In this document: in pieces, positions 1-54,990 of the stretch
How the letters are laid out: every line of letters starts with the position of its first letter
Position numbering within the stretch: position 1 is the stretch's first letter
Source: Galliscardovia ingluviei
GTDB lineage: Bacteria; Actinomycetota; Actinomycetes; Actinomycetales; Bifidobacteriaceae
Length of the DNA stretch: 64,000 nucleotides
Assembly: GCF_014635685.1 (NCBI RefSeq)
Contig: NZ_BMDH01000002.1
Span: 340,472 to 404,471, forward strand
Reading direction: 5' to 3'
Program-made: the position numbers and the translations under genes
Notes under the pieces: generated by a model
The model's database searches: none
Told to the model about the DNA's origin: nothing
Seen by the model: the letters and a program-made list of their open reading frames with translations, nothing else

Positions 1-927
1 TGGCAGTGTAATGCCGTCAGTAGCGTAGAAGGTTTTGCGCAGCAGCATTATACGCTGAGCTGCATGGATAAACGCTGTAGCATCGTGAATCTGTGAGCCG
101 ATGTGGGAGTGAATACCTACTAATTCAAGGTGTTCACTATGTTGCTTGATGGTTTGAAGGACAGCGAGCGCGGATCCTTGTGCTATGCATTCCATAGCTT
201 GTACGAGTTGTGTTTGCTCTTCTTGTGCTTGTTCGCTGTACGCCCTATCCCCAGCACTTTCCACAGCTTGTTGATTGTTGGCAAGATCTAGGAAGTCGAG
301 CAGATGTTCGTCTGCATCTACAGGTAGCAGCGGCACACCGAATTTTTGGTCCTCGTGAGCGGTAGAAATATACTCGTGTCCGCCTGCATGAATGCCTGAG
401 GTAACGCGCAACATCACGCGAGCGCGTTTACCGAGCTGCGATGCGATGCGTGCAATACGTTCTGGTTCATCTGGTGAGTCCACAACGATTTTATCGAAGC
501 CTTCGCTGATGGCGAGGCGTACCTCATCGTCCGTTTTGTTGTTGCCGTGCAGTACCAGTCGTCGTCCCGGCGCTCCTGCAGCGAGGGCAATGCGCATCTC
601 TCCCATAGTGCAGGTGTCGATATGCATGCCTGCGTCAAGCATGATGCGCACAATGCGTTTGGTAAGTAGTGCTTTGCCCGCGTAGCTGACTTGGGTGGTT
701 GTGGTGTTGAATGCCGTTTGTGCAGCGTTGACGAATCGTTGTGCTCGGTTTGCAATTTCGTCAGTATCTACTACATACAGCGGTGAGCCGTATTGTTCGA
801 GTAGGCTTGCTGCACTTATGCCATGGAATGTTATAGCTCCTTGAGCATCAATGTGCGTAGCTTCAGGCCATATTGGGCTTACTGGTTGACCTTCTGCTTG
901 TGCTGGCAAGGTTTCCTGCTGCGACAT
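1..927 (-). CDS. lysA: Diaminopimelate decarboxylase, N-terminal 309 codons (cut by window edge)
   Basis: Catalyses the last step of lysine synthesis, meso-diaminopimelate to lysine, with pyridoxal phosphate. I translated the open frame from ATG at 927; it is still open at base 1. Visible motifs are VSYAGKA, whose lysine would carry the PLP, an HGNNK segment typical of the family barrel, and HSHIGSQ, matching the conserved GLHxHIGSQ block. A strong ribosome site, GGAGGAGG, lies 5-8 bases upstream of the ATG, which fixes the start. The gene follows argS in the same direction after a 242-bp gap, an order familiar from bifidobacteria. The C-terminal domain with the substrate-binding cysteine and tyrosine is outside the window. 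Confidence 0.93.
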   Translation of the reverse strand, partial: MSQQETLPAQAEGQPVSPIWPEATHIDAQGAITFHGISAASLLEQYGSPLYVVDTDEIANRAQRFVNAAQTAFNTTTTQVSYAGKALLTKRIVRIMLDAGMHIDTCTMGEMRIALAAGAPGRRLVLHGNNKTDDEVRLAISEGFDKIVVDSPDEPERIARIASQLGKRARVMLRVTSGIHAGGHEYISTAHEDQKFGVPLLPVDADEHLLDFLDLANNQQAVESAGDRAYSEQAQEEQTQLVQAMECIAQGSALAVLQTIKQHSEHLELVGIHSHIGSQIHDATAFIHAAQRIMLLRKTFYATDGITLP

Positions 928-1169
928 ACGACTTCCTCCTCCGTATCGTCTGGTGCTGGTTACTGATTTCGCGAATCACAATGTATACAACTTGTAGCCT
1001 GTGCAACTCACAACTCGTGTGACCTGCACACTTATGCAACCCATCGCTTATATGTGCAACTCATAGCTTATGCAACTCACATGTGATCACGCGCGAATTG
1101 CATAAGCTATGTACACAGCTACTGAGTATTGGATACTTAGGCTTATACCTGTGTTTATGTCTGCGCGCT
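928..1169. other. argS-lysA intergenic spacer with short repeats
   Basis: This 242-bp spacer contains several copies of a TGCAACTCA-like element between about 1000 and 1085 (at about 1000, 1033, 1053 and 1073), some followed by TAGCTTATG or a variant of it. The copies are short and degenerate. I see no gene, and the lysA promoter was not resolved. Confidence 0.4.
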
Positions 1170-2978
1170 TTACATATGTTCTGGCGCGCTGACAGCAAGC
1201 AACTGCAAACCATTAGCAATAACTTGCTTAGTCGCGTCATTTAAGCGCAGACGCGCTGCTGCTCGTGCGGCACTTGGATTCTTTGCAATGCGCAATGCTT
1301 CACGTTCTTGCTCTGGCAGACGCTCTTCATCGTCAGTAAGTGCCATTGGAGCTACGCGCTCAGCCGCATACCACTTGTGGTAGCGTCCTGCAAGATCTTC
1401 AAGGTAGTGTGCTACACGATGTGGTTCACGGCCATCGCCTGCCGCAGAGAGCATGCTTGGATACTGTGCTAAAGCGGCAAGTAGGTCGTTGTCTGCTTGA
1501 GTATCGAGAAGCGCGAGGTCTGCACCTTCGTGTGTGACACCTGCTGCCGCAGCATTGCGGTCTACGTTGCATGCGCGAGCATGAGCGTACTGCACGTAAT
1601 ATACTGGGTTTTCGTTGGTGTGTGAGCGTAGCAGGTCGAGGTCAATATCCACGCTCTGGTTGTAGTCAGTGCGTGCCAGTGAGTATCGTGCAGCATCGAC
1701 ACCTACTGCTTCTACCAGATCGTCAATAGTGATGACGTTACCGGCACGCTTACTCATGCGCACTGGGCTACCGTCTTTCATTACATTGACGAGCTGTCCG
1801 ATAAGAATCTGCATATTCTCACCTGGAGTGTCACCGAACGCAGCGCACATAGCCATCATTCTGCCGATGTAGCCGTGGTGGTCTGCGCCGAGCATGTAAA
1901 TGGCAACATCTGCTGGATTGACCTTGCGATGGCGCTTATTGCGATAGTAGGCGATATCTGCAGCAAAATACGCGTAATTCCCATCGGACTTAATAATTAC
2001 GCGGTCTTTATCATCACCATGCTTGGTGGATGTAAACCATGTTGCACCATCATGCTCTTCAATATCACCGCGCTCGCGCAGGTCTTCGATTGCACGCGTT
2101 ACTTCGCCGTCTTCGTACAGGCTGTTTTCGTGGAACCACACGTCAAAGTTGACGCGGAAGTCACGCATGGATTGTTTGATTTCATCAAACATCATTGGCA
2201 CTGCACGCTTGCGGAATTCTTCACGCTGCTCGGAATCGCCTTCACCGAATGGCTCACCGTGTTCATCAACGCCACCATCTACGCGAGGTAGAGTGAGAAT
2301 ATCAATGCCTTCTGCCTTGGCTTGTTCGATGACTCGGTTAGCAATTTCATCAATATAGGCGCCCTTATAGCCGTCTACTGGCACCGGCTCACCATGTGCT
2401 GCTGCAACAAGTGACTTGGCAAAGCGGTTGATTTGCTCGCCATGGTCGTTGAAGTAGTATTCTCTCACTACTGTCGCACCATTGGCTTCAAGTACGCGGG
2501 CCATGGAGTCACCAACTGCCGCCCAACGAGTACCACCGATATGAATTGGACCGGTTGGGTTAGCGGACACAAATTCAAGGTTGAGGGTTTTATCAGCAAG
2601 ATGCTGATTACGCCCGAATGCTTCGCCCTCACTCAAAATAGTGTCCACAATGGATGCTGCTGATGCCGCATCGAGGGTGATGTTAATAAACCCTGGTCCT
2701 GCCACCTCTACTTTGGCAATGCCTGATGCCTGTTCTAGTTCATTGGCGAAACTTTGTGCTAATTCGCGGGGTTTTAGTCCTGCTTTTTTAGCACATTGCA
2801 TAGCAATATTGGTTGCCCAATCGCCATGTGAGCGATCTTTTGGTCGCATCACGGTGATGGCATCAACTGATGGGAGTTGGTCGGTAGTTAGTTCTCCAGC
2901 TTCTCCGCGTTCTACAAGAGTGCTGGCTGTTTGTGCAATAAGTTCACTTAACGCTTCTGGACTCATGAACATAAGCAT
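1170..2978 (-). CDS. argS: Arginyl-tRNA synthetase
   Basis: Charges tRNA-Arg with arginine in the cytosol (class I synthetase). The 602-residue length is normal for actinobacterial ArgS. The N-terminal additional domain is followed by the HIGH signature as NPTGPIHIGG near residue 140, then the KMSKS-equivalent RMSKRAGN near residue 407, and an all-helical anticodon-binding domain ending in LLAVSAPEHM, the usual ArgS terminus. Three in-frame ATG codons lie close together (2978, 2972, 2966). None has a strong ribosome site, so the exact start is uncertain by up to four codons. The gene sits upstream of lysA on the same strand. Confidence 0.97.
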   Translation of the reverse strand: MLMFMSPEALSELIAQTASTLVERGEAGELTTDQLPSVDAITVMRPKDRSHGDWATNIAMQCAKKAGLKPRELAQSFANELEQASGIAKVEVAGPGFINITLDAASAASIVDTILSEGEAFGRNQHLADKTLNLEFVSANPTGPIHIGGTRWAAVGDSMARVLEANGATVVREYYFNDHGEQINRFAKSLVAAAHGEPVPVDGYKGAYIDEIANRVIEQAKAEGIDILTLPRVDGGVDEHGEPFGEGDSEQREEFRKRAVPMMFDEIKQSMRDFRVNFDVWFHENSLYEDGEVTRAIEDLRERGDIEEHDGATWFTSTKHGDDKDRVIIKSDGNYAYFAADIAYYRNKRHRKVNPADVAIYMLGADHHGYIGRMMAMCAAFGDTPGENMQILIGQLVNVMKDGSPVRMSKRAGNVITIDDLVEAVGVDAARYSLARTDYNQSVDIDLDLLRSHTNENPVYYVQYAHARACNVDRNAAAAGVTHEGADLALLDTQADNDLLAALAQYPSMLSAAGDGREPHRVAHYLEDLAGRYHKWYAAERVAPMALTDDEERLPEQEREALRIAKNPSAARAAARLRLNDATKQVIANGLQLLAVSAPEHM

Positions 2979-3114
2979 AGCGATAGCGCCGTATTGGAGC
3001 GTGATATCCGTCCAAACTAGTGATAACGCATACTCCGATGCGCCAAACGCCGCACAAAATCGACACCAAATTCAGCATTAGTTCAGTACAACTTCAGCAT
3101 CAAGTTAACGCAAT

Positions 3115-3297
3115 CTAGCTCAGCACCGCTCCAATAGTAATACCAATAAATACCACTAACACTACTAAAGCCACTAGCGCTACAGCATGGGCTAGTACTT
3201 TCAAGAATGCGATATGCGTATGCTTAGCCCCATATATGGCACTGACGAACACTGCGAGCGCAAGTACCATAATGAATGTAAGCAACACATAAAACAC
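3115..3297 (-). CDS. Small two-helix membrane protein, unknown
   Basis: The 60-residue product is almost entirely hydrophobic, with two predicted membrane helices (about residues 3-22 and 30-57) separated by a short polar loop KHTHIAFLK. It begins with GTG only five bases after the stop codon of the RidA-like gene, so it is probably translationally coupled to it. I do not recognise a family. The tight spacing and clean hydrophobic pattern argue that it is real. The cysteine-rich RidA upstream is its only evident functional neighbour. Confidence 0.55.
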   Translation of the reverse strand: MFYVLLTFIMVLALAVFVSAIYGAKHTHIAFLKVLAHAVALVALVVLVVFIGITIGAVLS

Positions 3298-3304
3298 GTG
3301 CCTA

Positions 3305-3850
3305 CTATACCGCAGCTATAGCATCAATTTCTACTAATGCACCCTTTGGAATGGCGTTACCACCAAAAGCCACACGTGCTGGCTTAACTGCACCAGTCAG
3401 CGCTGCAGAATATGCGGCGTCTACTTCAGCAAAATCGTTAACATCTGCGAGATAGATGGTAGCGCGCACAATACGATCCATACTAGAGCCTGCCGCAGTA
3501 AGCACTGCCGCTATATTTTTCATCGCTTGGGCTGCTTGCTCTCCTGCAGTAGCTCCTGCAAGTTCACCAGTGGCTGGATTAATGCCGAGCTGACCGGAAA
3601 CGAATACAAAACCGTTTGCTTTCACTGCTTGCGAGTATGCGCCTAGTGCTGCTGGAGCTTGATCTGTAGCTACTTGCTCAAGCGGCTGCTGTGCACCGCA
3701 TCCACACTTGTTTTTACCGCACTGGCATGCATTCTGCTCGCCTTGGCATTGCTTTTGTTCGCACTGGCAAGCGCCCTTTTCGCACTGGCAAGCGCTCTGC
3801 TCGCCTTGGCATTTATGTTCTGCACACTTGCATGGTTCTTCTGCACACAT
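3305..3850 (-). CDS. RidA/YjgF-family protein with cysteine-rich repeat N-terminus
   Basis: The C-terminal part (about residues 54-181) is a complete RidA domain. It has GAYSQAV near the start, FVSGQLGINPATGEL, and the terminal block KPARVAFGGNAIPKGALVEI, which keeps the arginine that binds the carboxylate of enamine/imine substrates. RidA enzymes hydrolyse reactive 2-aminoacrylate formed by PLP enzymes. The first 51 residues are unlike RidA: 13 cysteines in about seven heptads (PCKCAEH, KCQGEQS, ACQCEKG, ACQCEQK, QCQGEQN, ACQCGKN, KCGCGAQ). I chose ATG at 3850 because AGGAG lies eight bases upstream; the open frame continues 34 codons further with no better start. A metallothionein-like metal-binding role for the repeat is inference. 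Confidence 0.85.
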   Translation of the reverse strand: MCAEEPCKCAEHKCQGEQSACQCEKGACQCEQKQCQGEQNACQCGKNKCGCGAQQPLEQVATDQAPAALGAYSQAVKANGFVFVSGQLGINPATGELAGATAGEQAAQAMKNIAAVLTAAGSSMDRIVRATIYLADVNDFAEVDAAYSAALTGAVKPARVAFGGNAIPKGALVEIDAIAAV

Positions 3851-4137
3851 ATTTACTCCTTCACCATATTGCCTACATAATGCATATGTATTGTCCGCAT
3901 ACTGCATATTGTGGTTATACTGCCGCATGTACGCAACAATCAATTGATACACAGTTTATGCGCAATCATTTGCGTTTCCCCGCATTTATCTCATTTTCAT
4001 GTAAATACAAATTCCGCATGAAATGACCAATCTACGTACTACAAGTCCGCTCATCATATTCGCCCATACTTTACATAGCTTGAAAGCGTTGTTTTGGATG
4101 AACACATTTTTCATGCTTGCGACTGTTGCGATTGCAC

Positions 4138-4377
4138 TTATAATTGCACCTGGAAAAAGGTTGACGGTCTGATTTGGAACAGATCAAAAATAGCTATGGC
4201 ATCATGGATATCAGCACGTCCTGTTGTAATCAGTCTTTGTACTTTTTCAAGTGGGATTTTCGTTTTATTTGCGATATCCACATCCGTGAGTTTGGTACGC
4301 TGCATTTCGATAGCTAGACGGTCTACTACACGCTGTGGAGTATCAAATACATATGCCGCAAGAAGTCCGGTTGGCAT
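4138..4377 (-). CDS. Small XRE-like helix-turn-helix protein
   Basis: The 79-residue product contains a helix-turn-helix-like stretch at about residues 28-60 (TDVDIANKTKIPLEKVQRLI), where the ALAxxxGxS pattern of XRE/Cro regulators is recognisable but degenerate. The tail FDLFQIRPSTFF also fits XRE-type domains. It stands alone and has no clear ribosome site before ATG at 4377. The frame stays open for about 23 codons upstream without a standard start codon, so the N-terminus is uncertain. It is probably a DNA-binding protein. Its target is unknown. Confidence 0.5.
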   Translation of the reverse strand: MPTGLLAAYVFDTPQRVVDRLAIEMQRTKLTDVDIANKTKIPLEKVQRLITTGRADIHDAIAIFDLFQIRPSTFFQVQL

Positions 4378-4842
4378 GAAAGGACAAAAGCTCGGTTTGC
4401 AGCTTCTTACTGCGCGGTCAATGGAGTAAATATGCCCATACTCACCTTACTTCTGCCATATACTACAATTTGTGGCTAACAGTATAGCATGTCAGAGAAG
4501 CTCAACTATTACTGATTTTCAAAACCATATCAACAATAGACACGGCTATACAATCGTGGTAGATAGGGGGTTGGCGTTTTACCATTTTTTCAAATACAAT
4601 GGGTAAGGTTAGGCAATTGCAGACTTTGGGGAAGTTGCAAGCGCCATGCTCGGCAAACACCATACGCACTACTTGTACACACAGTATTCCATATGGAAAA
4701 CCAAGTAGCCGAAACAGACACTAATAAACAAACCAGTCAACAGACTGAGAAAACAGACTCGGAAAATAGCGACTGAGAAACACAGACTCAGGAACACAGT
4801 ACCGAGCACAGGCCAAAAGCCTCGAAGCGGTTGGGGGGAAAT
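4378..4842 (+). other. Intergenic region with an in-frame, stop-interrupted leader before the surface protein
   Basis: From ATG 4693 there is a 27-codon polar Gln/Thr/Glu-rich frame ending at TGA 4774-4776. Beyond that stop the same frame stays open for 22 more codons and runs straight into the surface-protein ATG at 4843. Bases 4735-4800 are also imperfect tandem copies of an ACTGAGAAAACAG-like unit. The remaining 300 bases after the HTH gene show nothing clear. Confidence 0.4.
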
Positions 4843-7800
4843 ATGCACAAACACACACCTTTTGTTGCACGTATTAGTGCAGCTGTAGCGATTATAGGTA
4901 TGGCTTTGGCACCAAGCTTAGCTTTCGCAGAACCAAGCGATTCTCTAGATTCCCTGTCTACTACCCCAACTGCAACTGCGATCCCAACTACAACACCAGC
5001 CGCAACTACAGCAACATCTATAACTACATCTACTACCTCTACTACCTCTACTACCTCTACTACCTCAACTTCTTCCGCCAATCCTCCCACTATCTGCGAT
5101 GGCTCCGTCACCCCAGGAGTTGGTTCAGATACTGCTGAGCATTGCACTGGCAATATCGATCCTAATGACCCTAATACTTTCCAATACATGCTGAATATGG
5201 CAGTAATTGGCGATTCATACACTGCTGGCAATGGCACCAATCTACCGGGTGGCGGCAAGGACAAGACCATCGACCAGCTCATTAAATGGTACTTGGGCAT
5301 GGATTACAGCCAGTACGGCAATTACTATGGCGATTACCAAGAAAACGGCAAAACCGTGCGCCCATTCCGCTCACATCTCAACTACAGCGAGCATTATATG
5401 CGCTGGTTGCAAAGCCAAGGTGTGAAGGTTATTTATAATAATTACGCGCATTCTGGGGCTACTATTACCGGAGAAGCACAGCACGGCATTCTCAATCAGG
5501 TTGATAATCTTGACAAGCATACAGGTTTGGTGCTGCTTACTGCTGGCGGCAATGATGTGAAATTCTCTACCATTGCAAAGAGCTGCTTTGCTATGTTGAT
5601 GCGTTCTCCAGAAAAATGCAAAGCGGCAGTAGATGAAGCATTTTCTCTCTTGCCTACAGTTAAGCAGAACACGCTGGCCCTGTTTAATAAATTAGAGCAG
5701 CAAATTGCGAGCGATAAGCAAGCACAAGCCGTATTACTTGCCTACCCACTGCTTTCTATGGATAAGCCAACATATGTTGCGCAAGATGGTATTGGCGGTT
5801 GGGGCCCTGGAGCCTATCCTGCTGCAACTGCCGTACGGGAGCTTGGTATGGAAGCAGTAGATGAGCAGAGGCGCGCAGTAAACGAGTGGAATAGTGGCAA
5901 CCACTCGCTGAAAGTGACATATATTGACTCAATCCCAGAGGCTTTTGCAGGGCACGAACCAGACCCAAGTTGGACTTCCTATAATGATTTCCGCTGGATT
6001 AACGAATTCAAAGAAACTATGGGCGTGCAGAATCCAAATACTCGACCTGCATTCAAAATATATTCCAAAGGACTCCCTCTACTTGGCGATGATAATCAAG
6101 CGAATTTCTACCATCCGAATATTAATGGACATAAAGTTGAAGCCGATATTTTAGCTGAAAAACTTGGCATTCCTGCAGTTACGCGCAAAATTGATAAGAA
6201 TGCGCCTCATATGGATGTGGCGATTGTACTGGACGCTACTGGCTCGATGAAAGATGATATTGAAGCAGTACGTGACAATATCAATAATATTATTGACAAA
6301 GTACGCGGCAAGAGTGAAACCGTGCGCGTGGCAGTAGTTACATATAAGGATTTCCCTCAGCATTATGGCGCTGAAACCGACTATCCTGCACAAGTAGAGC
6401 AAGCGTTTACTGAGGATATTAACACGGTAAAAGATAAGATTGGCAAAATTGTAGTCAGCGGAGGTGGCGATAATCCAGAGACAGTGTATAGCGGTCTGAA
6501 CGCAGCGTTCACTCAGTTGAAGTGGTGCGATGGCGTGAAAAAAGTTGCGCTAGTATATGGCGATGCAGTGCCGAAAGAGCCTGAGCCGGAAACCAATTTC
6601 ACATGGAAGGATATGGCTGATAAAGCGTACGCGCTTGACCCAGTAGAGATATATGCTATTGATTCTGGCGAAATTATGACTTCTGTAAATATGCAAACGC
6701 TTGTCAAACAGTCTGGCGGTATGGCAACTACTATTAGTAACGCCAGCCAAGCGGCAGATGCTATCACTGCGACACTTGATAAGGCAGCCAATAAGCCATT
6801 TGCATGGCTAAGCGGACCATACCAAGACAAAGTTGGTGCCACACTCACGTTTGATGCCAGCAATTCATATGCTGTGGATGGGTCTGGTCTTGTGAAGTAT
6901 GAGTGGGATTTTGACGGCGATGGTAAGTTTGAAGAAACTACTGCAAAACCTCAGGCCAAGCATACGTTTATGAGTGAATACACCGGTCCTGTCGGTGTGC
7001 GCGTTACAGACGGCAACGGTTTGCAAGCTACTGGCTCAACCCTGGTGACTATTACCAAGGATGGCGACATTATTCCTGACGATCAGGATAACTGCCCAAC
7101 CGTATCGAATACCGATCAGGCAGATAGTGACGGCGACGGCGTAGGAGATGCCTGTGATGCTACCCCTGGCAATGAAGTGCCCGAAGTGAATCCGTATGGC
7201 GCGTATGAGGTTGATGGCACGAAGCCTCCAAGTGGTCACCAAAAGGTGGAGCTTTCTAGCGATACTGTAATGGCTGGGAAGAGCGTGGACGTGAAAGCTG
7301 GTATTTTTGCTCGCGATGCGAAGGCAACGGTGAGTGTTGATGAGCAAGGTGCTGGTAATAAAGCTGCCAACAAAGCTGGTAACAAGGACTCCCATAAAGC
7401 ACGTCAGCTGGCAACATTCAAAGTTTCTGCAGACAATTTGCTTGCCGAAGGTTCAGTTACTATTCCAGCAAATCTGCCACTTGGCAAGCACACACTTACT
7501 GTAACAGCTGGTGATTTACGGGCAAGCACTACCCTGACTGTTATAGAGAATCCTGAAATACCTACAGGTGGCACAGATAATGGGAATACAGGCAGCGAAC
7601 CTACCAAGCCTGCTGATCCTGCAGACTCAGACGATGCTGAGAAACCTAATGATACAGGCAAGAATAATACCGAACAGCCAAACAATCAGCAGCATACTGC
7701 TAATACCAACTCAAACACTGCACAAGATAAACCACACGGCGCACAAAACTCAACCGGAACGCAAAACTTGACCAGTGCACAAGATAACTCACAGGATAAA

Positions 7801-7926
7801 TACGGCATTCACGAACTCAGCGCCACAGGAGTGAATATTGCAGTAACGGTGTTAGCGGTATTGATCATCGCGGTTGTTGCCATTAGTCTGCTGGCTATTC
7901 AGAAAAACTCCAACCGCAAGCAGTAA
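4843..7926 (+). CDS. Secreted multidomain surface protein: SGNH hydrolase, vWA, PKD, TSP type 3, sorting signal
   Basis: The 1027-residue product starts with a signal peptide (ISAAVAIIGMALAPSLAFA) and a Thr/Ser-rich linker. An SGNH esterase/lipase domain covers about 115-440, with GDSYTAGNG, AGGNDVKFS and YHPNINGH matching blocks I, III and V. A vWA domain with MIDAS LDATGSM begins near 457, a PKD domain with YEWDFDGDG lies at about 650-735, and a calcium-type thrombospondin-3 motif DSDGDGVGDACD lies near 765. An Ig-like segment and an Asn/Thr-rich stalk follow. The end is LSATG (near 992), a membrane helix and KNSNRKQ, which resembles a variant LPxTG anchor. ATG 4843 is chosen over TTG 4831 because GGGGGGA sits just before it. 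It is probably a wall-anchored adhesin/hydrolase; its substrate is unknown. Confidence 0.85.
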   Translation: MHKHTPFVARISAAVAIIGMALAPSLAFAEPSDSLDSLSTTPTATAIPTTTPAATTATSITTSTTSTTSTTSTTSTSSANPPTICDGSVTPGVGSDTAEHCTGNIDPNDPNTFQYMLNMAVIGDSYTAGNGTNLPGGGKDKTIDQLIKWYLGMDYSQYGNYYGDYQENGKTVRPFRSHLNYSEHYMRWLQSQGVKVIYNNYAHSGATITGEAQHGILNQVDNLDKHTGLVLLTAGGNDVKFSTIAKSCFAMLMRSPEKCKAAVDEAFSLLPTVKQNTLALFNKLEQQIASDKQAQAVLLAYPLLSMDKPTYVAQDGIGGWGPGAYPAATAVRELGMEAVDEQRRAVNEWNSGNHSLKVTYIDSIPEAFAGHEPDPSWTSYNDFRWINEFKETMGVQNPNTRPAFKIYSKGLPLLGDDNQANFYHPNINGHKVEADILAEKLGIPAVTRKIDKNAPHMDVAIVLDATGSMKDDIEAVRDNINNIIDKVRGKSETVRVAVVTYKDFPQHYGAETDYPAQVEQAFTEDINTVKDKIGKIVVSGGGDNPETVYSGLNAAFTQLKWCDGVKKVALVYGDAVPKEPEPETNFTWKDMADKAYALDPVEIYAIDSGEIMTSVNMQTLVKQSGGMATTISNASQAADAITATLDKAANKPFAWLSGPYQDKVGATLTFDASNSYAVDGSGLVKYEWDFDGDGKFEETTAKPQAKHTFMSEYTGPVGVRVTDGNGLQATGSTLVTITKDGDIIPDDQDNCPTVSNTDQADSDGDGVGDACDATPGNEVPEVNPYGAYEVDGTKPPSGHQKVELSSDTVMAGKSVDVKAGIFARDAKATVSVDEQGAGNKAANKAGNKDSHKARQLATFKVSADNLLAEGSVTIPANLPLGKHTLTVTAGDLRASTTLTVIENPEIPTGGTDNGNTGSEPTKPADPADSDDAEKPNDTGKNNTEQPNNQQHTANTNSNTAQDKPHGAQNSTGTQNLTSAQDNSQDKYGIHELSATGVNIAVTVLAVLIIAVVAISLLAIQKNSNRKQ

Positions 7927-7963
7927 TGCAAAAGATAAATAACCGTAAGAGGTAAACGACCAA

Positions 7964-8012
7964 AAGAGGTTGGAATAGGTGCTTACTTCTAGCAAATCTA
8001 TCCCAACCTCTT
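7964..8012. terminator. Stem-loop between convergent genes
   Basis: AAGAGGTTGGAATAG pairs with CTATCCCAACCTCTT with one mismatch around a 19-base loop. It lies between the surface-protein gene (+) and the priming transferase (-), so it could serve both. The T-run is weak. Confidence 0.6.
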
Positions 8013-8091
8013 AATATTCAGCGCTGAATCTCCTGAAATCCCTCAGTCTCTATAACATCAGACTCTATGACCCTTAAACTCGCGCAGACTG

Positions 8092-8868
8092 CTATAACCC
8101 TTGCGCAGTAATCACGATAAGCACTGTGCGGAAGATAATCTTCAAATCAGTCCATAGTGAACACTTAGTAATGTATTTGAGATCGAGCTCAACCCATTCA
8201 TCAAAACTAATTTTGTCGCGATGCGGCTTGATTTGCCACAGGCAGGTCATTCCTTGAGGCACGAGCAGACGTTGCATTTGATACGGCGTATATTGCGCAA
8301 CTTCGCGCACAATCGCAGGACGAGGACCTACTACGCTGAGATCACCGCGTAGTACATTGAAAAATTGTGGAAGTTCGTCGATAGAAAGCGCACGAATAAT
8401 GCGCCCAACTCGCGTAATACGGGGATCATGCTCCATCTTGAACACAGGACCCGTTTTCTCATTTTGCGCCTTGAGCTGCTCTAGAATCTCTCCAGCATTG
8501 GACACCATAGAACGGAACTTATACATCATGAAAATGCGTCCGCCCGCACCAACGCGGGGTTGCCGGAAGAACACAGGTCCTCGAGGATCATCAATTTTGA
8601 TAGCGATAGCAATAATGATAAACAGCCAAGAAAAGACAAGAATTACAGTAAGCGCAAAGAGAAAATCAAGAATTCGCTTGGCATAGCGATACGCTGCGCG
8701 ATGTTCTCGCAAGCGCTTAACCGCTACAGCAATATCCTGACGAATTGGTCGAGGTGATAAATTGATACCTACTGCAGAAGAGGGCTCACAGTCGATTGTT
8801 TCGTCATGAAAGTCATGCACATCATACACTGAATGTGCTGATGACGAATCAGCTCTACAGTGAGCCAT
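8092..8868 (-). CDS. Priming sugar-phosphate transferase (undecaprenyl-phosphate, WcaJ/RfbP type)
   Basis: Starts exopolysaccharide repeat synthesis by moving a sugar-1-phosphate from a UDP-sugar to undecaprenyl phosphate at the inner membrane face. The 258-residue product is the short form. It has a polar N-terminus, one hydrophobic segment (about residues 60-82, ILVFSWLFIIIAIAI), then the conserved catalytic region with MMYKFRSM, SIDELPQFFNVLRGDLSVVG and GPRP. It lacks the N-terminal multi-helix and Rossmann-like region of long WcaJ proteins. ATG 8868 has GGGGG eight bases upstream. It is the only priming enzyme in the window, so it probably also serves the 37-53 kb cluster. Confidence 0.93.
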   Translation of the reverse strand: MAHCRADSSSAHSVYDVHDFHDETIDCEPSSAVGINLSPRPIRQDIAVAVKRLREHRAAYRYAKRILDFLFALTVILVFSWLFIIIAIAIKIDDPRGPVFFRQPRVGAGGRIFMMYKFRSMVSNAGEILEQLKAQNEKTGPVFKMEHDPRITRVGRIIRALSIDELPQFFNVLRGDLSVVGPRPAIVREVAQYTPYQMQRLLVPQGMTCLWQIKPHRDKISFDEWVELDLKYITKCSLWTDLKIIFRTVLIVITAQGL

Positions 8869-9393
8869 AATCAATACCCCCGCTCCAGTTGGCGTATTCT
8901 CTCCATAGTTAAGTCATATGTCCTGTCAGGGTTCCAGCGCCTGTACATACCGCCATGCATATACTTTCTTCGCGCATCGCCTTTTTGTACACCCATAATG
9001 TACAACATAAAGTGCACAAATACATTACAACCGTAAAAGCGTGTACTGACAGACTATCAATTATTTGTTATCTTGCCCAAAATATGATATAGCACCTTAT
9101 TATTATCGTCTACTATCATGCCATATTCCAGACTTACAACGAATATTCATATTTACACATAGCCTTAGTTTTATAATATGTAATTCTTAGCGTACGACGT
9201 TACATATTGCAACATTAATCCGACCAAAAGAAAGCATAGCGTCAGCTTTTATTAATATTTAGGAAATCCATTATAAATCTGAAATACCCATGTACACACA
9301 AAATCCTCTCTACATATAGTTTTTCTATATTAGACCTTATAGGAAGGAATATCTGCATATCGGCAAAGACACAAACTCATAGGTATTTCTTCA
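8869..9393. other. AT-rich gap of about 525 bp
   Basis: Separates the flippase stop from the priming transferase start. It is AT-rich with no convincing open frame. It probably holds the transferase promoter on the minus strand, but I could not assign -35 and -10 boxes. A loose inverted pair (TTTTGTACAC/GTGCACAAA) occurs near 8980-9020. Confidence 0.35.
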
Positions 9394-54299: not shown

Positions 54300-54990
54300 A
54301 TCCCTATCCCCAACTCTTCACTGCTCACATGTTCGGCAAGTGCAGCACTCAGCGAACACTGTCTGGCACCTGCAACGCATACACTGAGCATGTGCAACTC
54401 GCCTACCGAACACGTAGAGCTCGCCTACTAAGCACCCACAACCCCACTTGCGCACACTTAGTGTCTCTCTGCATTGAGTATACTCCTCTTGCTCTAAATA
54501 CTCATCGCACTTAAGTAAAGTTGTGGTATGTTCACACGATGTTTGCCGTTCCGACCACGGTCTATATCATCCATACTCAGCAATCTTTATAGATCTGTAT
54601 TCGCATCCATATTTGCCAAGCTGTTCATTATACTGAACAACTTACCACTTTTTCTATGTTTTGTTCATTATACTGAACAACTTTCCTGTTTTATATGATT
54701 TTGTTCACTGTACTGAACAAGGATCAGGCATATAGTCAGAAAATCTGATATAAGGTCACTTAAATAAGCAAAAAGGCGCTGACACAAGCGAGATAAAAGC
54801 TTGCGCCAGCGCCATCCCTACGTTACCCCTTGCAGTAGAACAGGTGTGTGAAAATCTACTGTAGTTAGGTGGTAGGGTTTGGGAAGGAGGGATACGTTTG
54901 TAAGTCCTGCCCTGTCTTTTAAGTTGTTATTGAGTTATAGAACTACTGTTCAGTAGCCTTATTCAGTAGCTTTATCCAGTAGACTACAGA
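54300..54990. promoter_or_regulatory. Pilin-sortase spacer with three phased palindromes
   Basis: Three copies of TGTTCANTRTACTGAACA start at 54622, 54662 and 54702, exactly 40 bp apart; copies 1 and 2 are identical and copy 3 differs at two central bases. They lie 320-420 bp upstream of the sortase start, between the pilin terminator and the sortase. A regulator binding all three on one DNA face would fit. Confidence 0.75.
54770..54813 (-). terminator. Terminator of the pilin gene
   Basis: On the minus strand GGCGCTGGCGC pairs with GTGTCAGCGCC (outer 7 bp perfect), with an inner AAGC/GCTT stem. T5 follows at 54774-54770. It separates the pilin and sortase transcripts. Confidence 0.75.

Follow-up and report, generated by a model that had tools for sequence, protein, structure and literature searches.

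Does the RidA protein encoded at this locus really carry a cysteine-rich N-terminal tail, and if so, what would such a tail do beside the enzyme? The locus was analyzed within a window of 64,000 nucleotides, the whole stretch of DNA whose positions are given here. The features on which the question turns are as follows.

3692..3850, minus strand: cysteine-rich N-terminal tail of RidA (residues 1–53; seven heptads, 13 Cys, five CxC)
3305..3691, minus strand: RidA domain (Ribonuc_L-PSP, PF01042; residues 54–181 and stop), from profile matches; the sole PF01042 match in the genome
3718..3812, no strand assigned: 21-bp tandem array from Tandem Repeats Finder (4.5 copies, 72% matches)
3848..3868, minus strand: start codon ATG with an AAGGAG ribosome site (TATGGTGAAGGAGTAAAT-ATG), from the sequence

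Translation of the minus strand from 3850 to 3305 yielded 181 amino acids with no internal stop. The tail cysteines were located at residues 2, 7, 9, 14, 21, 23, 28, 30, 35, 42, 44, 49, and 51. All 13 fell at phase 0 or 2 modulo 7, a phasing whose probability by chance has an upper bound of 3.5e-9 with any two phases allowed, and residues 54–181 contained no cysteine. After the initial MC, the heptads read in frame as AEEPCKC, AEHKCQG, EQSACQC, EKGACQC, EQKQCQG, EQNACQC, and GKNKCGC, five with CxC and two with a single C. The linkers were polar (Q, E, K, A, G, and N), and the only residue of the VILFMWY group in the tail was the start Met. Among six-frame open stretches of at least 51 residues in the window, the tail was the 51-residue stretch with the most cysteines, and the runner-up had 10. 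A single-sequence fold model gave a mean pLDDT of 54.9, with low values in both the tail and the domain, and speaks neither way. The N-terminal cysteine tail of RidA is real in the sequence, and tail and enzyme part cleanly near residue 53. The original prediction of cysteine heptads with CxC or C, encoded by a 21-bp tandem repeat, was thus recovered in both its parts.

The remainder of the protein is an ordinary RidA. Residues 63–181 matched PF01042 (E 5.9e-38; 130 bits against a cut-off of 27.3), and residues 58–180 matched TIGR00004, the Rid family detoxifying hydrolase (138.2 bits against 106.25), so that both profiles defining the RidA subfamily were found above their curated cut-offs. 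The KPAR motif at 156–159 aligned with the KPAR of the two best solved relatives, 3m1x and 3mqw, and solved relatives aligned from about residue 48–60 onward. In the RidA subfamily a conserved arginine, Arg105 in TdcF, binds the carboxylate, as stated in the available part of PMC4433059. Its counterpart here is R159 in KPAR, equated with TdcF Arg105 by motif and not by alignment. The whole catalytic domain (58–181) and the KPAR arginine are therefore common to this protein and the subfamily, and the suggestion of a fusion to an otherwise normal RidA is borne out by PF01042, TIGR00004, and KPAR.

PF01042 matched once in the whole genome, which is listed as 95.6% complete, and the tailed protein is probably the only RidA of the cell. 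The genome also held four matches to PF00291, which we take to be the family that includes threonine dehydratase. RidA proteins are homotrimers according to the accessible part of PMC4960622; imine deaminase activity and a homotrimeric state are predicted for the tailed protein from its membership of the RidA family.

A RidA match was present in 133 of 189 family genomes, including the window's own. The ridA starts of 125 other family genomes were read, a number reached from 131 loci by leaving out the window's own, two second copies, one same-order genome, and two loci from Paenibacillus and Geoalkalibacter; a few of these are remote members of the Rid family (e.g., G150 and G062, 36–39% identical). 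Seven of the 132 other RidA-matching genomes were uncounted, six with distant matches (G022, G152, G153, G174, G193, and G198) and one cut by a contig end (G157). In all 125, among them all 8 congeners, a start codon was reached within 14 codons ahead of the domain, and the intervening residues included no cysteine; up to 64 residues back, or to the nearest stop, no more than 8 cysteines were found in any of them. The tail was present in 1 of the 126 family ridA genes read, and the 53-residue heptad tail sets this protein apart from the 125 family orthologues and homologues. That ordinary RidA proteins lack such a part, as originally proposed, agrees with every one of these genomes. The same proposal had named two findings that would count against it, translation starting past the repeat and a lack of conservation in any related genome. 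The second is what was found in genus and family, and it speaks against a conserved function, not against a lineage-specific one.

Several alignments in relatives seemed to reach into the tail (G069, G190, G111, G124, G096, G092, G081, G126, and G125). They were rejected as upstream DNA ahead of an ordinary start, with no heptads. At the locus of G081 (L075), an open stretch upstream of the ridA domain held 8–9 cysteines ahead of an ordinary ATG, only 4 of them in phase, and this stretch is likely due to chance. The G+C content of the window was 0.43, and 0.47 around ridA, against 0.61–0.63 for three congeners at their ridA loci (L002, L003, and L006), an odd gap within one genus.

Relatives of the tail itself were then sought at wider range. 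With the tail as query, only the window's own sequence was found below E 0.04 in the genus (best other match, E 0.048), below E 0.005 in the family (best other, E 0.006), and at E 0.01 in 396 genomes of the phylum. The tail joined to the first RidA residues retrieved, from 396 genomes of the order at E 0.001, itself, five ordinary RidA starts of the family, and G788 (E 7e-4). The G788 locus (L172) was rejected, having no open stretch of at least 60 residues with 7 cysteines in 50. The 11 loci inspected among 21 non-self loci of genus and family contained at most 9 cysteines per 50 residues and no heptad array by eye, and the weak tail-like matches in genus, family, and order were treated as chance. 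No match to the tail was obtained in Pfam or among PDB chains up to E 10, in searches whose HMMER filters can miss distant relatives of so short and biased a sequence. A tblastn search of plasmids and phages, run with low-complexity filtering that may hide a tail of this kind, and a search of IMG/VR by exact patterns yielded no tail relative. A contig scan with exact 8-residue patterns returned only two RidA starts, from Paenibacillus and Geoalkalibacter, whose matches began at query residues 53 and 56. These plasmid, phage, IMG/VR, and contig collections may omit the window's own genome or very near ones. As far as the examined genomes show, the tail is confined to one genome.

Metal-thiolate proteins combine many thiols, CxC pairs, and a polar chain. 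By what is known of metallothioneins, 13 thiols with CxC on a polar chain make the tail metal-thiolate-like. It shares with metallothioneins a high cysteine content (13/53), CxC motifs (five), polar linkers, and almost no hydrophobic residues (one of VILFMWY). It differs from them in its lack of detectable homology (Pfam and PDB, up to E 10), its joining to an enzyme, and its strict 7-residue phase, and its metal binding is putative. Of the resemblance to a metallothionein or zinc-binding tail that was first suspected, the composition and CxC spacing stood, whereas the searches turned up no metallothionein homologue. On that composition and spacing, metallothionein-like metal binding is the most plausible reading, and a soft-metal-binding, thiol-buffering tail is the best explanation, to which we assign a probability of roughly 45%.

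According to this reading, RidA would bear at its N-terminus a disordered thiolate tail that behaves as a metallothionein in miniature. In a reducing cytosol, the 13 cysteines of the tail would hold soft metals, for example Zn(II) or Cu(I), and a RidA trimer, if formed, would present 39 thiols. Under oxidant or metal stress, these thiols would either buffer or release metal and form disulfides, beside the enzyme that protects PLP enzymes. Metal binding, disorder of the tail, and any effect on RidA activity are what we infer, and the choice of metal, if any, is not readable from the sequence. In our judgement, an Fe–S tail is less likely than a metallothionein-like one. Among the targets that 2-aminoacrylate damages in a Pseudomonas strain mutated in ridA, IscS is a significant one (PMC9239102, available part), a tie of RidA to sulfur and Fe–S use that is indirect only. 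Against a metal tail stand the lack of a family match, its presence in one genome only, and the absence of a metal or redox clue in the genes beside ridA, none having been seen by eye among the ORFs of 1–9000. An extension, in which a metallothionein-type tail that evolved within one bifidobacterial lineage would render the sole RidA an imine deaminase responsive to metal or oxidants, with release of metal or formation of disulfides among the 39 thiols of a trimer tuning its deaminase or holdase activity, is unlikely.

A tail that binds metal or senses oxidants would let one protein join reactive-enamine clearance to the metal or redox state, a link of which no description for any RidA was found among the literature matches listed. 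Metal binding would also make it a case of a recent metal-binding tail on a housekeeping enzyme. Since tail and enzyme are separable at about residue 53, the idea is open to direct test. A known architectural variant, 3x-RidA, is a tandem fusion of RidA domains with no Cys tail. The comparative Rid-family study that describes it sought fusions and, in its available part, noted tandem RidA fusions and no Cys tail (PMC4433059). Among the literature matches listed, none concerned a Cys-rich or metallothionein-like RidA, an absence weakly tested because several matched unrelated words. As far as found, the tailed protein is a new RidA variant with a plausible metal-thiol tail.

A possible though less probable explanation is that the tail has no function: a short CxC-coding unit would have been copied where ridA begins, leaving the reading frame open, and its product would be tolerated. 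Units 2–3 and 5–6 of the array differ at 8 of 42 bases (81% identical), which indicates that part of the array probably came from duplication, and a short CxC unit duplicated where ridA begins is the probable origin of the tail within this lineage. Such a neutral, young expansion gains from this internal copy, from the restriction of the tail to a single family ridA gene, and from a selection test within the array that was not significant (P 0.15), with no Cys codon changed between units 2–3 and 5–6. It has to contend with 13 reactive cysteines kept in strict phase despite wide divergence of the linkers. Linker bases showed a mean pairwise difference between units of 0.43–0.68 by codon position, against 0 for bases 1 and 2 of the first Cys codon, a comparison that is partly circular because the units were recognised by their cysteines. 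Identical adjacent bases numbered 74 of 126, against 37.9 (sd 6.1) in a codon shuffle, which largely restates the phasing. Furthermore, a second PF01042 match, which could serve the cell as a fallback, was not found. If neutral, the tail would be an oddity, a repeat that grew at a start codon.

Regulation by oxidation was weighed against the metallothionein-like reading and appears improbable. In this scheme, the reduced and perhaps Zn-bound tail would be silent, and its oxidation would form disulfides within and between trimers, giving a holdase or an inactive deaminase. The tail shares a Cys-rich stretch with the Zn-Cys redox-switched chaperones Ruc (Rv0991c) and Hsp33, and the RidA family likewise has an oxidant-induced holdase, E. 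coli RidA becoming one on exposure to HOCl (PMC4284807, in the part at hand). The same source reports that peroxynitrite modification of the single Cys of E. coli RidA inhibits its stimulation of threonine breakdown, and M. tuberculosis Ruc is switched by Zn-binding cysteines (PMC7448276, in part). Nevertheless, the activation of E. coli RidA by HOCl proceeds through N-chlorination and is independent of Cys, the C107S variant still working, as given in the accessible text of PMC4284807. Ruc has four cysteines in a zinc-ribbon arrangement and, in the portion available, no sequence similarity to RidA (PMC7448276). A site of the Hsp33 or Ruc type has four zinc-binding cysteines; the cysteines of the tail form CxC heptads, Pfam gave no domain there, and the fold model, at a mean pLDDT of 54.9, is too poor to be used. 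The sequence of the tailed RidA gives no evidence for a switch.

Cysteine metabolism is a source of 2-aminoacrylate, and in mycobacteria poly-Cys leader ORFs act as attenuators. In the tailed RidA, 13 early Cys codons could tie RidA synthesis to charged Cys-tRNA, and hence to cysteine metabolism. In diverse bacteria, RidA genes do lie grouped with genes for cysteine desulfurase and desulfhydrase, according to the part of PMC4433059 available. However, clustered Cys codons and a separate leader would be expected of such a gate, whereas the Cys codons of this ridA are dispersed, keep strictly to the heptad phase, and lie in the reading frame of the enzyme itself, an arrangement that speaks for the peptide rather than for a codon gate. 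This explanation is very unlikely.

The last alternative is that the tail is never produced. The AAGGAG site lies directly ahead of the ATG at 3850, and the first in-frame ATG, GTG, or TTG after codon 1 is codon 76 (GTG), which lies within the RidA domain and past the conserved GAYSQ motif at 70. In relatives, the nearest ATG, GTG, or TTG lies 5–14 codons ahead of the RidA domain; the ridA of the window has none there, so a full RidA domain, if made, comes with the tail. Although the short distances in relatives would favor translation from downstream of the repeat, the lack of a common start codon before codon 76 and the AAGGAG at ATG 3850 make this very improbable, and such a start was rejected. 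The other finding named at the outset as counting against the tail, a start downstream of the repeat, is in this way ruled out by sequence for common start codons, and we infer that the tail is translated as read.

On the downstream side of ridA, two further ORFs were considered.

3115..3297, minus strand: hydrophobic 60-aa ORF with a GTG start; open, beginning 7 bases past the ridA stop
1170..2978, minus strand: the downstream neighbour of ridA, which from its sequence we take to be argS (arginyl-tRNA synthetase)

The argS gene is near ridA in several relatives too, e.g., in G127. For the 60-aa ORF (3297–3115), Pfam gave nothing up to E 10, none of the 8 congeners had a counterpart, and, among the loci compared with it, only the one of the window itself matched. 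It may be a gene particular to this lineage, or no gene at all but an ORF open by chance. Of the coupled two-helix membrane protein envisaged there, the open ORF 7 bases past ridA was confirmed, but Pfam and the congeners gave no match, the helices were judged by eye, and a coupled membrane protein is putative.

An Rfam search of 2900–5000 gave one sub-threshold, chance-like match (18.3 bits against 45). A promoter scan of 2900–4500 detected no minus-strand site upstream of ridA, and its 3 promoter-like sites compare with 3.4 in shuffles.

Two other repeats were observed in the window. A 1031-aa ORF on the plus strand (4831–7926), with a threonine-rich start and a C-terminal hydrophobic stretch, contained a 9-bp tandem, ACTACCTCT, at 5023–5070. 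With its lipase-like GDSYTAGNG and von Willebrand-like DATGSM motifs, its product resembles a secreted or anchored surface protein. A 40-bp tandem repeat of 2.5 copies with 86% matches was located at 54622–54720.
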